From a virus, in the IMG/VR virus record IMGVR_UViG_3300043436_003760, positions 1 through 20,582 of that record: 20,582 nt of DNA. One strand, given 5' to 3'. The position numbers and the translations under genes are program-made. Under the pieces are notes generated by a model that saw only the letters and a program-made list of their open reading frames with translations, did no database searches and had not been told where the DNA came from. Below, in pieces: positions 12,868 to 20,582 of this stretch (positions are counted from its first letter, which is position 1; each line of letters starts with the position of its first letter).

Positions 12868-12887
12868 CGGCAAGCCCTGTTCGTTAG
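12868..12887 (-). repeat. attC-like repeat, copy 1 (after methyltransferase 1)
   Basis: The plus strand reads CGGCAAGCCCTGTTCGTTAG; the minus strand gives CTAACGAACAGGGCTTGCCG. The same 20 bases recur at 14435-14454 and, with one inserted base, at 17233-17253. Read on the minus strand, GAACA at the start pairs with TGTTC 14 bases on and GGC pairs with GCC inside, so a compact imperfect hairpin is possible. It lies 20 bases beyond the stop of the methyltransferase gene. Confidence 0.6.
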
Positions 12888-12907
12888 GTGCAATGCCAGC
12901 AGACACC

Positions 12908-13633
12908 CTAAAACAAACGAGCCTGACTGACAAATTCCTCATATCTTTTATTTTGTTTGTTAAAATATTCCTCATCAATTTCACAACCGACAAAGTGTAA
13001 TTTATTTTTATTGGCACTTATTCGACTTGAACCACTACCCAAGTGAGTATCTAAAACTTTCATTCCTTCAGTTGCATATCTTGAATAAATAAAGTCATAC
13101 AATGCCACAGGCTTTTGGGTTGGGTGCATTCTAATTTCTTTATCTTTCATATTGCCTTGTAACATTCCAGCCCAGCGAAATTTAAAACGTCTTACCGCAG
13201 TTCCAAATGAAGCCCAAGCCATTTCACAATCAGCAAAATCATTTTCGCCATTTTCTTTATCCCAAATTATCCAACAACTACTATCATAGGGCATTCGGCT
13301 AATAAAGTGATTTGCACCCCAAACAATTTGATTTTTAGAAACTCTAAACAACTCATAAAAGTATTCAAGTGGTGGCGGTTCTTTATCCCAATTTTTAGGA
13401 GTGTATTCTTTAGCTTTTGCTTGTTTTGAACGGCTATGGTTTTTTTCACCATCCTCACCAATTCCATAAGGTGGGTCAACTACAGCCAAATCGAAGTATT
13501 TATCAGGGTAATGCTTCATTAAAAAAATACAGTCCATTAAATACACTTCCGACACCAAAGGCACTGCACCTAACAAGGTATTGCCAAAAGTGGGGCTTTC
13601 GTGCTTTATATAAACATTTGTATCTATATTCAT
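12908..13633 (-). CDS. DNA methyltransferase 1 (adenine-N6 or cytosine-N4, class beta order)
   Basis: The protein has 241 residues. The catalytic motif DPPYG is at 53-57, the variable target-recognition region is in the middle, HPTQKP (motif X) is at 170-175, and the cofactor loop DTHLGSGSS (motif I) starts at 195. This motif order is that of beta-class amino-methyltransferases. No restriction gene lies nearby, so it probably protects phage DNA or regulates, rather than being half of a restriction system. It is a close relative of the next gene: residues 1-57 and about the last 40 are nearly identical, while the centre differs. It is read leftward. The shared leader before the ATG (13634-13672) is the same in both copies. 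Confidence 0.9.
   Translation of the reverse strand: MNIDTNVYIKHESPTFGNTLLGAVPLVSEVYLMDCIFLMKHYPDKYFDLAVVDPPYGIGEDGEKNHSRSKQAKAKEYTPKNWDKEPPPLEYFYELFRVSKNQIVWGANHFISRMPYDSSCWIIWDKENGENDFADCEMAWASFGTAVRRFKFRWAGMLQGNMKDKEIRMHPTQKPVALYDFIYSRYATEGMKVLDTHLGSGSSRISANKNKLHFVGCEIDEEYFNKQNKRYEEFVSQARLF
12915..13003. repeat. Direct repeat B, copy 1 (89 bp, 3' end of methyltransferase 1)
   Basis: These 89 bases are identical to 13689-13777 by eye. They cover the last codons of the methyltransferase. Identity stops abruptly on the gene-internal side, where the two genes then differ at many bases. Confidence 0.85.
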
Positions 13634-13672
13634 AATTTTGTATTTTTAATTAACTTTGGTGGTTTAATGCCA
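13462..13672. repeat. Direct repeat A, copy 1 (211 bp, 5' end and leader of methyltransferase 1)
   Basis: These 211 bases are identical by eye to 14218-14428, 756 bases away. They contain the first 57 codons, up to the DPPYG motif, and 39 bases of leader. The boundaries are sharp on both sides. Confidence 0.9.
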
Positions 13673-13681
13673 AGAGACCGC

Positions 13682-14389
13682 CTACCATAAACGAGCCTGA
13701 CTGACAAATTCCTCATATCTTTTATTTTGTTTGTTAAAATATTCCTCATCAATTTCACAACCGACAAAGTGTAATTTTGCTTTATTGGCACTTATTCTAC
13801 TGCTTCCACTTCCTAAATGTGTATCAAGTATTTTCATACCTTCGGTTGCATACTTTGAAAATATCCAATCATATAACTTTATGGGCTTTTGAGTGGGGTG
13901 CATCTTATTCTCTTGATTAGCCACTGCTCTATGTATTGTGTGTATTCTCATTGCTTTATCAAATGAAGTCCAAGCCATTTCACCATCTGCCAAGCTAAAA
14001 TCTCTTTGACCCTTATCCCAAATTAACCAGCATTCTGAATTAGGTAACATATTTGCAAAGTAATTACCACCCCACACAATTTGATTTTTAGATACTCGCT
14101 GAAGTTCTGCAAAGTATTCAGGGGTTGGTATTGTTAAATTCCAACCATTATTACATTTATCCCAATCAATTTTATTATTCCAACCATTCTTTGATGACCT
14201 GCCACCGCTTAAATTGTTTCCATAAGGTGGGTCAACTACAGCCAAATCGAAGTATTTATCAGGGTAATGCTTCATTAAAAAAATACAGTCCATTAAATAC
14301 ACTTCCGACACCAAAGGCACTGCACCTAACAAGGTATTGCCAAAAGTGGGGCTTTCGTGCTTTATATAAACATTTGTATCTATATTCAT
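13682..14389 (-). CDS. DNA methyltransferase 2, paralogue with different target-recognition region
   Basis: The protein has 235 residues with the same layout as its neighbour: DPPYG at 53-57, HPTQKP at 164-169 and DTHLGSGSS from 189. The middle (about residues 58-150) is different: GGRSSKNGWNNKIDWDK and DKGQRDFSLADGEMAW here, against DGEKNHSRSKQAKAKEYTPK and ENGENDFADCEMAW in copy 1. This part should contact DNA, so the two enzymes may recognise different sites. The leader and first 57 codons are base-identical to copy 1, as is an 89-base block at the 3' end. It starts 61 bases after the stop of the upstream gene. Confidence 0.9.
   Translation of the reverse strand: MNIDTNVYIKHESPTFGNTLLGAVPLVSEVYLMDCIFLMKHYPDKYFDLAVVDPPYGNNLSGGRSSKNGWNNKIDWDKCNNGWNLTIPTPEYFAELQRVSKNQIVWGGNYFANMLPNSECWLIWDKGQRDFSLADGEMAWTSFDKAMRIHTIHRAVANQENKMHPTQKPIKLYDWIFSKYATEGMKILDTHLGSGSSRISANKAKLHFVGCEIDEEYFNKQNKRYEEFVSQARLW
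13689..13777. repeat. Direct repeat B, copy 2 (89 bp, 3' end of methyltransferase 2)
   Basis: Second copy of the 89-base block at 12915-13003, offset by 774 bases. The 18-base difference from the 756-base offset of repeat A equals the six-codon length difference between the two enzymes. Confidence 0.85.
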
Positions 14390-14428
14390 AATTTTGTATT
14401 TTTAATTAACTTTGGTGGTTTAATGCCA
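14218..14428. repeat. Direct repeat A, copy 2 (211 bp, 5' end and leader of methyltransferase 2)
   Basis: Second copy of the 211-base block at 13462-13672, identical by eye. Beyond 14428 the sequence runs into the attC-like repeat copy 2, while beyond 13672 it does not. Confidence 0.9.
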
Positions 14429-18302: not shown

Positions 18303-18547
18303 TTACCCAACACCACATATCCATTCATGAAAAGGCATTAAAATTGCTTCGTGAAATACATGCTGAAACATTGTTACTCGAATATAATGTACAGTCAAAC
18401 AAAAAACAAAATAGCCCTTACCTTAAAAAAGTAATTCAATTAAAACGTGAACGCATTAAGTCAATGGTTAACCGTTACGAATTTTGCTGCCAGCAATTAC
18501 TACCTAATGAAGTTATTAATAATCCTATACTTGAAAGATATGGCTAA
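18299..18547 (+). CDS. Hypothetical helical protein, 82 residues
   Basis: The protein starts MITQHHISIHEKALKLLREI and is mostly helical and basic in the middle (KKVIQLKRERIKSM). It has no cysteine pair motif, membrane helix or known domain. It overlaps the upstream gene by four bases and the downstream gene by eight, showing tight coupling in the rightward early operon. Unknown function. Confidence 0.6.
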   Translation: MITQHHISIHEKALKLLREIHAETLLLEYNVQSNKKQNSPYLKKVIQLKRERIKSMVNRYEFCCQQLLPNEVINNPILERYG

Positions 18548-18737
18548 TTATACATTTGCAGCTTCGTTAAACGACTGCTTTATACGAAATGTAAAGGTAT
18601 CTGCTTACAACATTAAAAAAGCTAACCAGCTTGCAGTTTATGAATTAAAGCAGCTTTACCCAAACACTTACCATAACTTAGAAATTGAATTAACACATTG
18701 CAATGAGCCTGCGGCTAAATGCAATAAAAACTTATAA
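18540..18737 (+). CDS. Hypothetical protein, 65 residues
   Basis: I chose the ATG at 18540, which overlaps the preceding gene by eight bases, over the upstream in-frame ATG at 18447 that lies deep in that gene. The protein starts MANYTFAASLNDCFIRNVKV and has the helical part IKKANQLAVYELKQLYPNTY. No known motif. Its stop codon is the first three bases of the 37-base hairpin element before ERF. Confidence 0.55.
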   Translation: MANYTFAASLNDCFIRNVKVSAYNIKKANQLAVYELKQLYPNTYHNLEIELTHCNEPAAKCNKNL

Positions 18738-18771
18738 CGGCACCAGCTCCCGACATCTGGCAATAATTATG
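18735..18771 (+). promoter_or_regulatory. 37-base hairpin leader element, copy 1 (before ERF gene)
   Basis: The element runs from TAACGGCAC to the ATG. CCAG (18743-18746) pairs with CTGG (18757-18760) around a 10-base loop CTCCCGACAT; eight bases then lead to the start codon. It aligns without gaps with 20434-20470 (27 of 37 identical). Both inner stem pairs are exchanged in the other copy, which keeps the hairpin. Confidence 0.65.
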
Positions 18772-19350
18772 GAAAAACTAACACTCATTCAATCTGAATT
18801 AAAAGCACCTAAAAACCAGTACAACAGTTTTGGGAAGTACAAGTATCGAAATTGTGAAGATATTTTAGAAGCAGTTAAGCCTTTGCTTTTAAAACACAAA
18901 TGTGTTTTAATTATTTCTGATACTATTGAAAATATAGGTAACAGATTTTATGTAAAAGCAACTGCAACTTTTGTTTTTGATGGTGACAAAAAAATACAAG
19001 TATCTGCTTACGCAAGGGAAGAAGAAAGTAAAAAAGGTATGGATGGCTCACAAGTAACTGGTGCAGCTTCATCTTATGCTCGTAAATATGCTTTAAATGG
19101 TTTATTTTTAATTGATGATACAAAAGATGCTGATAGTGATTTGCAGCCAAAAGAAACTGCTAAACAAAACACATCTAATAATGAAGCCCTACACCTTTCG
19201 ACTATTGAAGCAATATCCGATATGGAAGTGCTAAAGTCATATTGGAAAGCATTGCCATTGAACGAAAAAACACCAGCTGTAACTGCAATGAAAGATAAAG
19301 TAAAAGCTAAAATTGAAGGCAATGATAGTAACCCAACAGACCGCAATTAA
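18769..19350 (+). CDS. erf: ERF family single-strand annealing protein
   Basis: The protein has 193 residues from the ATG at 18769; the longer reading from 18703 would run through the hairpin element. The ERF hallmark is at residues 98-123 (GAASSYARKYALNGLFLIDD followed by TKDADS). The N-terminus contains LKAPKNQYNSFGKYKYRNCE, also typical. ERF proteins bind single-stranded DNA and anneal homologous strands in phage recombination and genome circularisation. Residues 125-193 are a variable, probably flexible tail. It belongs to the rightward early operon with the 159-residue protein 21 bases downstream. Confidence 0.9.
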   Translation: MEKLTLIQSELKAPKNQYNSFGKYKYRNCEDILEAVKPLLLKHKCVLIISDTIENIGNRFYVKATATFVFDGDKKIQVSAYAREEESKKGMDGSQVTGAASSYARKYALNGLFLIDDTKDADSDLQPKETAKQNTSNNEALHLSTIEAISDMEVLKSYWKALPLNEKTPAVTAMKDKVKAKIEGNDSNPTDRN

Positions 19351-19371
19351 TAATTAAAAAAACAAAACAAA

Positions 19372-19851
19372 ATGAACACAGAATTATCAACAATTACCAC
19401 ATTAGCATTATTTGAAACATCTAAACAACAACGTGAAAACTTTTGCGTTGATGTTATTAATCAAATTGAAAACGGAGTTGCAGAACCATTAAAAGTACAC
19501 GCATTTGTTAAGTCAATGGAGGACGTTGTTAAGTTGTTAAATGACAACAAGCGTTACAAAAATTTAGTATTAGAAGCTGCCGAACAAAACGGTAAAAAGT
19601 TCCAAATGTTTAACGCTGAATTTTCAGTTAAAGAAGTTGGTGTTAAATATGATTATTCACAATGTAACGACCCAGAACTATTACAATGGAATAATGAATT
19701 GGAACAACTAACAGAAAAAATAAAGTCTAAACAAAAGTTTTTACAAACAGTACCTTTAGCAGGGTTAGAAATTGTTGTTGATGATGAAATGGTAAAAGTT
19801 TACCCACCATCTAAAAGCAGTACTACAAGCGTTGCTGTTACCTTAAAATAG
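19372..19851 (+). CDS. ERF-associated hypothetical protein, 159 residues
   Basis: The protein starts MNTELSTITTLALFETSKQQ. It has a helical middle, a conserved-looking VKEVGVKYDYSQCNDPEL and a C-terminal end (VYPPSKSSTTSVAVTLK). I recognise this ending from proteins placed next to recombination genes in Bacteroidota phages, but no function is known. It is soluble, with an acidic helical part (NNELEQLTEKIKSKQKFLQT). A role as accessory factor in recombination is inferred from the neighbourhood. Confidence 0.6.
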   Translation: MNTELSTITTLALFETSKQQRENFCVDVINQIENGVAEPLKVHAFVKSMEDVVKLLNDNKRYKNLVLEAAEQNGKKFQMFNAEFSVKEVGVKYDYSQCNDPELLQWNNELEQLTEKIKSKQKFLQTVPLAGLEIVVDDEMVKVYPPSKSSTTSVAVTLK

Positions 19852-19858
19852 TACTACC

Positions 19859-20167
19859 ATGAACGACTTCGCCAAATGGATTGAGCAAGAATACTTTGAG
19901 CAAGCAAAAGCTTACAGAATAGCATTGTGGAAAGCATGGCAAAGCGTTATTGACTTTCCAATGCCTGTGATTATTAGTGAGCTTAGAATGGTTGCATTGC
20001 CCAAGTTTAGCAAGTATAATGGAAACGTTCCAAGAAGTGAACAAACAGCAATTTTTAACACAATTCGTAAACCAGACTTCGCCACAATTAGGGCGGAGTT
20101 TATAAAACAATACATAAACAAGGACACCGTAACTTTAGCGGAAAAAAATGGCATACGTAGAAGTTGA
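19859..20167 (+). CDS. Hypothetical protein, 102 residues
   Basis: The protein starts MNDFAKWIEQEYFEQAKAYR, with a Trp-containing helical N-terminal part (IALWKAWQSVIDFP) and a basic C-terminus. It follows the upstream gene after seven bases and overlaps the next by 20 bases. No known motif. It is part of the early recombination group. Confidence 0.6.
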   Translation: MNDFAKWIEQEYFEQAKAYRIALWKAWQSVIDFPMPVIISELRMVALPKFSKYNGNVPRSEQTAIFNTIRKPDFATIRAEFIKQYINKDTVTLAEKNGIRRS

Positions 20168-20429
20168 TATTGATATTGATGAATTTGATACATCTGATTT
20201 AGTAGATGAACTTGTCAAAAGAATGAAGTGTCAAAACACAAAAAAATCATTAACGCAAAAACAGAAAGACGAGTTAAAGGAAACGCTAAGTGAATTAAAT
20301 AAAGTGCTAAGTTTAGCACCAGTAAATGGAATTGAAATTAAAACATTAGATGATAAAATAAAATTTGAGCACATCGCTAATGTATTTAATAGATATTCTA
20401 TTTATCAATTAGAGCAACTATTATCATAA
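20148..20429 (+). CDS. Hypothetical protein, 93 residues
   Basis: The protein begins with an acidic stretch (MAYVEVDIDIDEFDTSDLVD) and continues as a Lys- and Leu-rich helix region (KKSLTQKQKDELKETLSELN). Its start overlaps the upstream gene by 20 bases in another frame. No domain is recognised. The gene is the last complete one in the window. Confidence 0.6.
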   Translation: MAYVEVDIDIDEFDTSDLVDELVKRMKCQNTKKSLTQKQKDELKETLSELNKVLSLAPVNGIEIKTLDDKIKFEHIANVFNRYSIYQLEQLLS

Positions 20430-20433
20430 ATCT

Positions 20434-20470
20434 TAACGGCACTGGCAACCGATACCCAGCAATTAGTATG
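20434..20470 (+). promoter_or_regulatory. 37-base hairpin leader element, copy 2
   Basis: From TAACGGCAC to the ATG. CTGG (20442-20445) pairs with CCAG (20456-20459) around the loop CAACCGATAC, and eight bases lead to the start codon as in copy 1. Stem bases are exchanged C-G to T-A and A-T to G-C relative to 18735-18771. Confidence 0.65.
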
Positions 20471-20582
20471 AGTAAATTGTATAATGGCAGTATTTGCCTT
20501 ACCGACATTCCAAAAATCAAAATAAATGTTGGCAAAAATGGTAAAAAGTATTTAAGCGTAAATGTTTGGATTAATGACAGCG
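20468..20582 (+). CDS. Start of a small protein, possibly ssDNA-binding (3' end outside window)
   Basis: Only the first 38 residues are visible: MSKLYNGSICLTDIPKIKI, followed by NVGKNGKKYLSVNVWINDS. I know similar starts from short proteins near recombination genes of Bacteroidota phages. The KYLSVNVWIND strand pattern might fit an OB-like fold, which would suit a single-strand DNA-binding role, but this cannot be judged from a fragment. It is preceded by the same hairpin element as ERF, suggesting co-regulation. Confidence 0.55.
   Translation, partial: MSKLYNGSICLTDIPKIKINVGKNGKKYLSVNVWINDS

Follow-up and report, generated by a model that had tools for sequence, protein, structure and literature searches.

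The window analyzed here is a virus record of 20.6 kb (IMGVR_UViG_3300043436_003760, 20,582 nt). It carries a gene for an ERF-family single-stranded DNA (ssDNA)-annealing protein of 193 residues and, cut by the end of the window after 38 codons, the 5′ end of a gene for an SSB-like protein (Table 1). The latter had been listed in the original prediction as a partial gene. Full-length relatives have approximately 90 residues with DLPF at the C terminus, and the one encoded at locus L243 ends in EDLPF and falls in phrog_24909 (E = 3.2e-17). Three small open reading frames (ORFs) lie between the ERF and SSB-like genes (19372 to 20429), and family searches with them returned no significant match. 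At locus L448, the two genes are likewise separated by several small ORFs. Elsewhere in the window, on the minus strand (12908 to 14389), two adjacent DPPYG-type DNA methyltransferase genes have near-identical ends: positions 13462 to 13672 and 14218 to 14428 (211 nt) are 100% identical, and positions 12887 to 13143 and 13661 to 13917 (257 nt) are 81% identical. Judged from these alignments, the pair is a tandem duplication whose middle part has diverged. The portal protein of the window shares 25% identity (E = 2e-16) with that of Nonlabens phage P12024S, and relatives of the SSB-like protein occur in phages of Flavobacterium, Riemerella, Polaribacter, and Tenacibaculum. The host of this virus is therefore probably a bacterium of the Bacteroidota.

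Both the ERF gene and the SSB-like gene are directly preceded by a copy of the same 37-nt segment, TAACGGCACCAGCTCCCGACATCTGGCAATAATTATG for copy 1 (18735 to 18771) and TAACGGCACTGGCAACCGATACCCAGCAATTAGTATG for copy 2 (20434 to 20470). As had been predicted, a gapless alignment gives 27 of 37 identical positions, and each copy ends at an ATG. With up to three mismatches allowed, the pattern common to both copies has no third occurrence in the window, and 100 dinucleotide shuffles did not contain it.

Table 1. Features of the two element copies and of the genes behind them
Feature	Position	Strand	Match or sequence
Element copy 1: UAA, pseudoknot, and 8-nt AU-rich spacer, directly 5′ of the ERF start codon	18735..18768	+	R1, 51.8 bits
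Copy 1, stem S1	18738-18740 with 18750-18752	+	CGG with CCG
Copy 1, stem S2	18743-18746 with 18757-18760	+	CCAG with CTGG
ERF-family ssDNA-annealing protein, 193 aa	18769..19350	+	PF04404, E = 2.2e-42; phrog_155, E = 2.9e-48
Element copy 2: UAA, pseudoknot, and 8-nt spacer, directly 5′ of the SSB-like start codon	20434..20467	+	R1, 50.3 bits
Copy 2, stem S1	20437-20439 with 20449-20451	+	CGG with CCG
Copy 2, stem S2	20442-20445 with 20456-20459	+	CTGG with CCAG
SSB-like gene, 5′ end (38 codons), cut by the window end	20468..20582	+	

Structure of the leader element

Each copy had been described as a hairpin with a 4-bp stem and a 10-base loop. The stem (S2) is as claimed, including the two double changes that distinguish CCAG/CTGG from CTGG/CCAG, and the loop has the expected length, but it is not free. 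The ERF protein has a relative with 65% identity at L243, where elements stand directly before both the ERF gene and the SSB-like gene, with S2 stems GCTG/CAGC and CAGG/CCTG. At L243, AGG:CCT replaces the CGG:CCG of the window, and therefore the CCG of the loop pairs with the upstream CGG to form a second stem (S1). Since these two triplets covary, a plain hairpin is ruled out. In relatives, S1 reads AGG:CCT, TCA:TGA, CCA:TGG, ACA:TGT, or CGA:TCG. Beside relatives of the SSB-like protein, the first four of these S1 variants were seen, and S2 reads CCGG, CTGG/CCAG, TCGG/CCGA, or GCGG/CCGC; this list of SSB genes was gathered by protein, irrespective of pairing. The S1 pairs and the spacer vary among relatives, so that TAACGGCA and CAAT, which had been considered fixed, are so only between the two window copies. 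An initial, looser pattern (TAACGGCA...GCAAT...ATG) retrieved no relatives from IMG/VR, its 120 matches being due to chance.

We conclude with near certainty that the element is a compact H-type RNA pseudoknot of 23 nt, with an S1 of 3 bp and an S2 of 4 bp. From 5′ to 3′, it consists of UUAA or UAAA, S1 (3 bp), L1 (2 nt), S2 (4 bp), L2 (3 nt), S1′, L3 (4 nt), S2′, an AU-rich spacer of 5 to 10 nt, and the AUG. In an alignment of 39 sequences that includes the spacer, 273 of 273 base pair cells are paired, and the 44 unique elements, many of which were found with patterns that presuppose pairing, have 308 of 308 cells paired, with double compensatory changes in six of the seven pairs and no one-sided change. 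Double changes occupy 71 cells (18.9 in shuffles), and the covariation score is 0.654, compared to 0.188 for shuffled alignments and at most 0.09 when the partners are slid. Because of the sequences found with pairing-assuming patterns, we also ran a scan free of S1 (TWAANNNYRCCGGCTCNNNNNANCCGG), which returned 41 matches; in 39 of them, S1 was paired and an ATG followed 6 to 8 nt downstream. The other two (L545 and L546) lack an ATG and are chance matches; the same applies to near-matches in L095, L143, L167, L285, L491, and L502, the whole group being dismissed for a misplaced or absent start codon, broken pairing, or poor agreement at conserved positions. The SSB protein tree requires at least 12 changes of S1 type and at least 7 of S2 type; leader recombination between phages could reduce this count of independent changes, and pairing is never broken. 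The prediction of a structured, compensating leader element at the start codons of recombination and early genes is thereby supported.

Minimum-free-energy folding is blind to pseudoknots and does not flag the element, the simple knot-free fold (−2.6 to −4.9 kcal/mol) being no better than that of shuffles. The knot itself is marginal by nearest-neighbor energies. Given this unremarkable folding energy, it is probably held together by loop contacts or by a ligand. Mutual information reveals an extra contact between the base before S2 and the base after S2. This pair is A-C in 32 of the 44 elements and G-U in 8; A-C and G-U wobble pairs are isosteric. Two A residues before S1 and one in L3 are unpaired and invariant. 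Such bases, together with the retention of one shape ahead of unrelated genes, point to a binding pocket, as would be expected of a very small metabolite riboswitch whose nucleotide-like ligand changes in the course of infection. The preQ1 class I riboswitch (RF00522) is among the smallest functional H-type pseudoknots. Its model did not match the element and gave a single weak match elsewhere (L374:2644-2688, 17.2 bits against a gathering threshold of 39). A riboswitch appears improbable, as no Rfam riboswitch matches the element at a useful score and the genes behind it encode mostly DNA-binding proteins rather than metabolic functions.

None of the 308 cells contains a G-U pair, which is unusual for RNA and could suggest an element acting as DNA, either as an ssDNA structure or as an operator for a protein that binds duplex DNA; the STAXI pseudoknot near ssb genes has been proposed as a possible ssDNA structure (PMC2864571). 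However, very short stems tolerate G-U badly, and the A-C/G-U swap under S2 is a wobble exchange. In addition, the element always lies on the coding strand with a start codon at a fixed distance, and a duplex operator would keep its sequence and not its pairing. Action at the DNA level is thus very improbable.

Distribution, start codon context, and genes behind the element

The search for further copies with preserved pairing in relatives had been put forward as the test of the prediction, and the element was found at approximately 70 distinct sites in IMG/VR with no uncompensated change, in one to three copies per whole phage record. A descriptor that required all seven pairs plus a start codon reached scores of 9 or more for 77 matches in the loci, and no score above 7 (that is, none at 8 or more) was seen in a reversed-sequence control. 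With two copies alone, so short a match could have been a coincidence or a recent duplication without function; these controls, the dinucleotide shuffles, and the covariation over some 70 sites contradict this explanation and leave it a negligible probability. Carriers are known solely from uncultivated IMG/VR virus contigs. A search of 395 Bacteroidota genomes returned no copy, only weak matches that do not fit the structure, and blastn of cultured phage records with three variants of 42 to 43 nt gave no match, which is a weak test for so short a query. The cultured phages JQ, P12002L, and elemo have related SSB genes without the element.

S2 ends 5 to 10 nt before the ATG, and the knot spans about −31 to −8 relative to the start codon, a position that falls within the ribosome landing zone. 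A stop codon usually ends within a few bases upstream of the element. At 15 of 68 sites, this stop codon is the conserved UAA itself, as in window copy 1, where positions 18735 to 18737 close the ORF at 18447 to 18737. A tRNA or tRNA-like gene lies directly upstream at approximately 22 of 70 distinct sites, and in most of these the RNA ends 4 nt before S1 (where the ARAGORN placement is good); about two-thirds of the sites, including both window copies, have none. This arrangement raises the question of mRNA processing or stability, in which the knot would cap the 5′ end produced by removal of the upstream gene or tRNA-like RNA and so shield the SSB message. The T4 gene 32 mRNA is also cut, by RNase E at −71, adjoining its knot (PMC3014915). 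Nevertheless, we regard this explanation as unlikely, given the sites without an upstream tRNA and the fixed distance to the AUG, which a 5′ cap would not need.

The tRNA-like RNA was observed at L341:1212-1302, L353:2100-2190, L206:19-111, L343:1367-1458, L210, L376, and other loci. ARAGORN calls it tRNA-Lys (ctt) or “???”, with a length of 91 to 93 nt. It has an acceptor stem and a T-arm, a D-loop insert that forms a hairpin with a conserved loop, and an anticodon arm whose loop varies in length. Across 15 sequences, 99.5% of cells are paired and 16 of 26 pairs show double changes; the score against the Rfam tRNA model is 34.0 bits, with a 25-nt insert. This RNA looks like a processing module rather than a working tRNA. 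Ordinary-looking tRNAs were also seen, upstream of position 2969 in L330 and L331 (tRNA-Leu-like by eye) and upstream of position 951 in L469 (called tRNA-Ser), and the adjacency therefore arose with different tRNAs.

The element is tied to genes for ssDNA-binding proteins of several unrelated kinds, plus ERF and a few others. Canonical SSB (L544; PF00436, E = 5.6e-20) and DUF3127 SSB (L504; PF11325, E = 2.5e-23; phrog_4932, “single strand DNA binding protein”) are both represented. The commonest targets are phrog_24909-like proteins of approximately 90 residues ending in DLPF, among them the product behind window copy 2. Two further groups are the MATLINAY-type proteins ending in PF (L206, L457, L483, L492, and L493) and the MGLSN and MSGLIKK types (176 to 185 residues, also ending in PF, including L490). 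At L490, the target follows what we take from the sequence to be a probable nuclease gene and precedes what appear to be methyltransferase-like and helicase-like genes. Bacterial SSB binds its partners through the tip of an acidic tail that ends in PF, and a tail of this kind supports, but does not prove, the SSB identity of the phrog_24909-like, MATLINAY, and MGLSN/MSGLIKK families. A structural model of a phrog_24909-type protein (mean pLDDT of 82) had no significant match in a PDB fold search, and a PDB profile search with the family gave no match; the presumed SSB role of this protein thus rests on its acidic tail ending in PF and on its gene neighborhood. The model of an MGLSN-type protein (pLDDT of 43) was too poor for use.

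ERF is the target in three lineages (the window, L243 with its close relatives, and L448). The remaining targets are ParB-like proteins (phrog_12305; L164 and L341), MEKNK/MNDYK-type proteins (L374 and L351), a 36-aa gene (L449), and an 88-aa gene (MDWKEIAVSMV...) located between holin-like and endolysin-like genes on a 57.7-kb virus contig (L488:5283). The L488 record, in which no PF00436 or DUF3127 SSB was found, alone departs clearly from the DNA-metabolism setting of the element.

Proposed regulation and known counterparts

With a probability of about 0.5, we read the element as a translational operator in the leader of phage genes for SSB-type and recombination proteins, autoregulated by SSB. 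The pseudoknot, its place ahead of start codons, and its tie to ssDNA-binding genes are observations, whereas action on translation, a repressive sign, and SSB as the ligand are inferred. Control of translation, already considered likely in the original prediction, is probable; autoregulation by SSB is somewhat short of an even bet. In Flavobacterium johnsoniae, which belongs to a phylum without Shine-Dalgarno (SD) initiation, leader structure around the start codon tunes initiation (PMC6847099), and a knot ending at about −8 would therefore most likely lower initiation until it is melted or displaced. Initiation in SD-less hosts relies on an open leader, so a folded knot could hold it down. 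Once replicating ssDNA is saturated, surplus ssDNA-binding protein would bind the knot and spread across the AU-rich start region, and its own gene would be repressed, together with co-regulated genes such as ERF where the element is present. Fresh ssDNA would then titrate SSB away and restore translation. The proven case is T4 gp32, an SSB that represses its own mRNA through a leader pseudoknot plus UUAA(A) repeats, binding the knot and then spreading over the start region (PMC535899; PMC3014915), and M13 gp5 represses another replication gene (PMC535899). On these precedents, we propose an operator read by SSB, with ERF co-regulated. ERF itself, which had been suggested as a regulator, is an unlikely one, as most carrier phages have a single copy and this copy precedes an SSB-type gene and not ERF.

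What weighs most heavily against SSB as the ligand is the occurrence of the same knot in SSB families unrelated to one another and the presence among the targets of the ParB-like, MEKNK/MNDYK-type, and L488 proteins, which are not ssDNA-binding proteins. Some phages with related SSB genes also do without the element. A single knot across such dissimilar families is better explained by a host SSB or another host factor, and a host factor as the ligand is therefore a serious alternative. The sharing of the knot by unrelated genes, including the one near lysis genes in L488, is also easier to reconcile with a positive signal, which the host ribosome or bS1 would read for recruitment or insulation, so that genes required in bulk early on obtain strong, structure-proof initiation with no SD sequence. 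The constant knot-AUG distance fits this reading. We nonetheless consider a positive signal rather unlikely. With one to three copies per phage, highly expressed structural genes manage without it; none was found in the 395 Bacteroidota genomes, although host genes use the same ribosomes; and well-translated genes of F. johnsoniae tend to have less pairing near the start codon (PMC6847099). More tentatively, the SSB-read operator could be extended to a portable ssDNA sensor, a shape of approximately 23 nt taken up by unrelated SSB families and ERF, through which one factor (phage SSB, or host SSB sensing free ssDNA) might control the ssDNA-handling genes of phages in SD-less hosts and which, in some phages, would be joined to the upstream tRNA-like processing module.

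As the original prediction anticipated, no described RNA family corresponds to the element. Rfam 15 gave no match at or above the gathering threshold in the window, and permissive Rfam searches gave chance-level matches only, none with a useful score on the knot. A full-text search of openly accessible journal articles found no account of it. The STAXI motif (RF01728) also consists of pseudoknots, which occur close to genes whose products bind single strands or otherwise handle DNA (PMC2864571). However, it has two to three tandem pseudoknots, often with UUCG loops, whereas the element is a single knot fixed at each start codon, and the STAXI model did not match it in the Rfam searches. By these comparisons, the element belongs to no Rfam family and is not STAXI. 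The E. coli rpsO gene is a host ribosomal protein gene with an SD sequence, and its pseudoknot is unlike the element in size and sequence. That pseudoknot is part of an autoregulatory translational operator (S15; PMC3014915), the role proposed for the element here.

The closest counterpart is the gene 32 operator of T4, T2, and RB69, in which the leader of a phage SSB gene likewise forms a small H-type pseudoknot, close to an AU-rich UUAA-type sequence. The T4 knot has approximately 28 nt and lies about 67 nt upstream of the AUG, the interval being occupied by UUAA(A) repeats and a ribosome-binding site, whereas the present knot ends 5 to 10 nt before the AUG, has UUAA or UAAA on its 5′ side, and also precedes ERF and other genes. 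If the proposed regulation holds, the element would be functionally like the T4 operator; it is not a member of that type, from which it differs in position, spacing, and sequence, and no homology is claimed. The element would provide a small RNA for which both a structure model and a candidate ligand are at hand, in phages whose SD-less hosts are apparently Bacteroidota. It may also serve as a marker for SSB genes left unnamed by current profiles, such as the phrog_24909-like, MATLINAY-type, and MGLSN-type families. A review describes the pseudoknot of T4 gene 32 as possibly the sole viral one in translational autoregulation (PMC3014915); the element would be a second one, independent of that of T4, much more compact, and spread over several unrelated SSB families.
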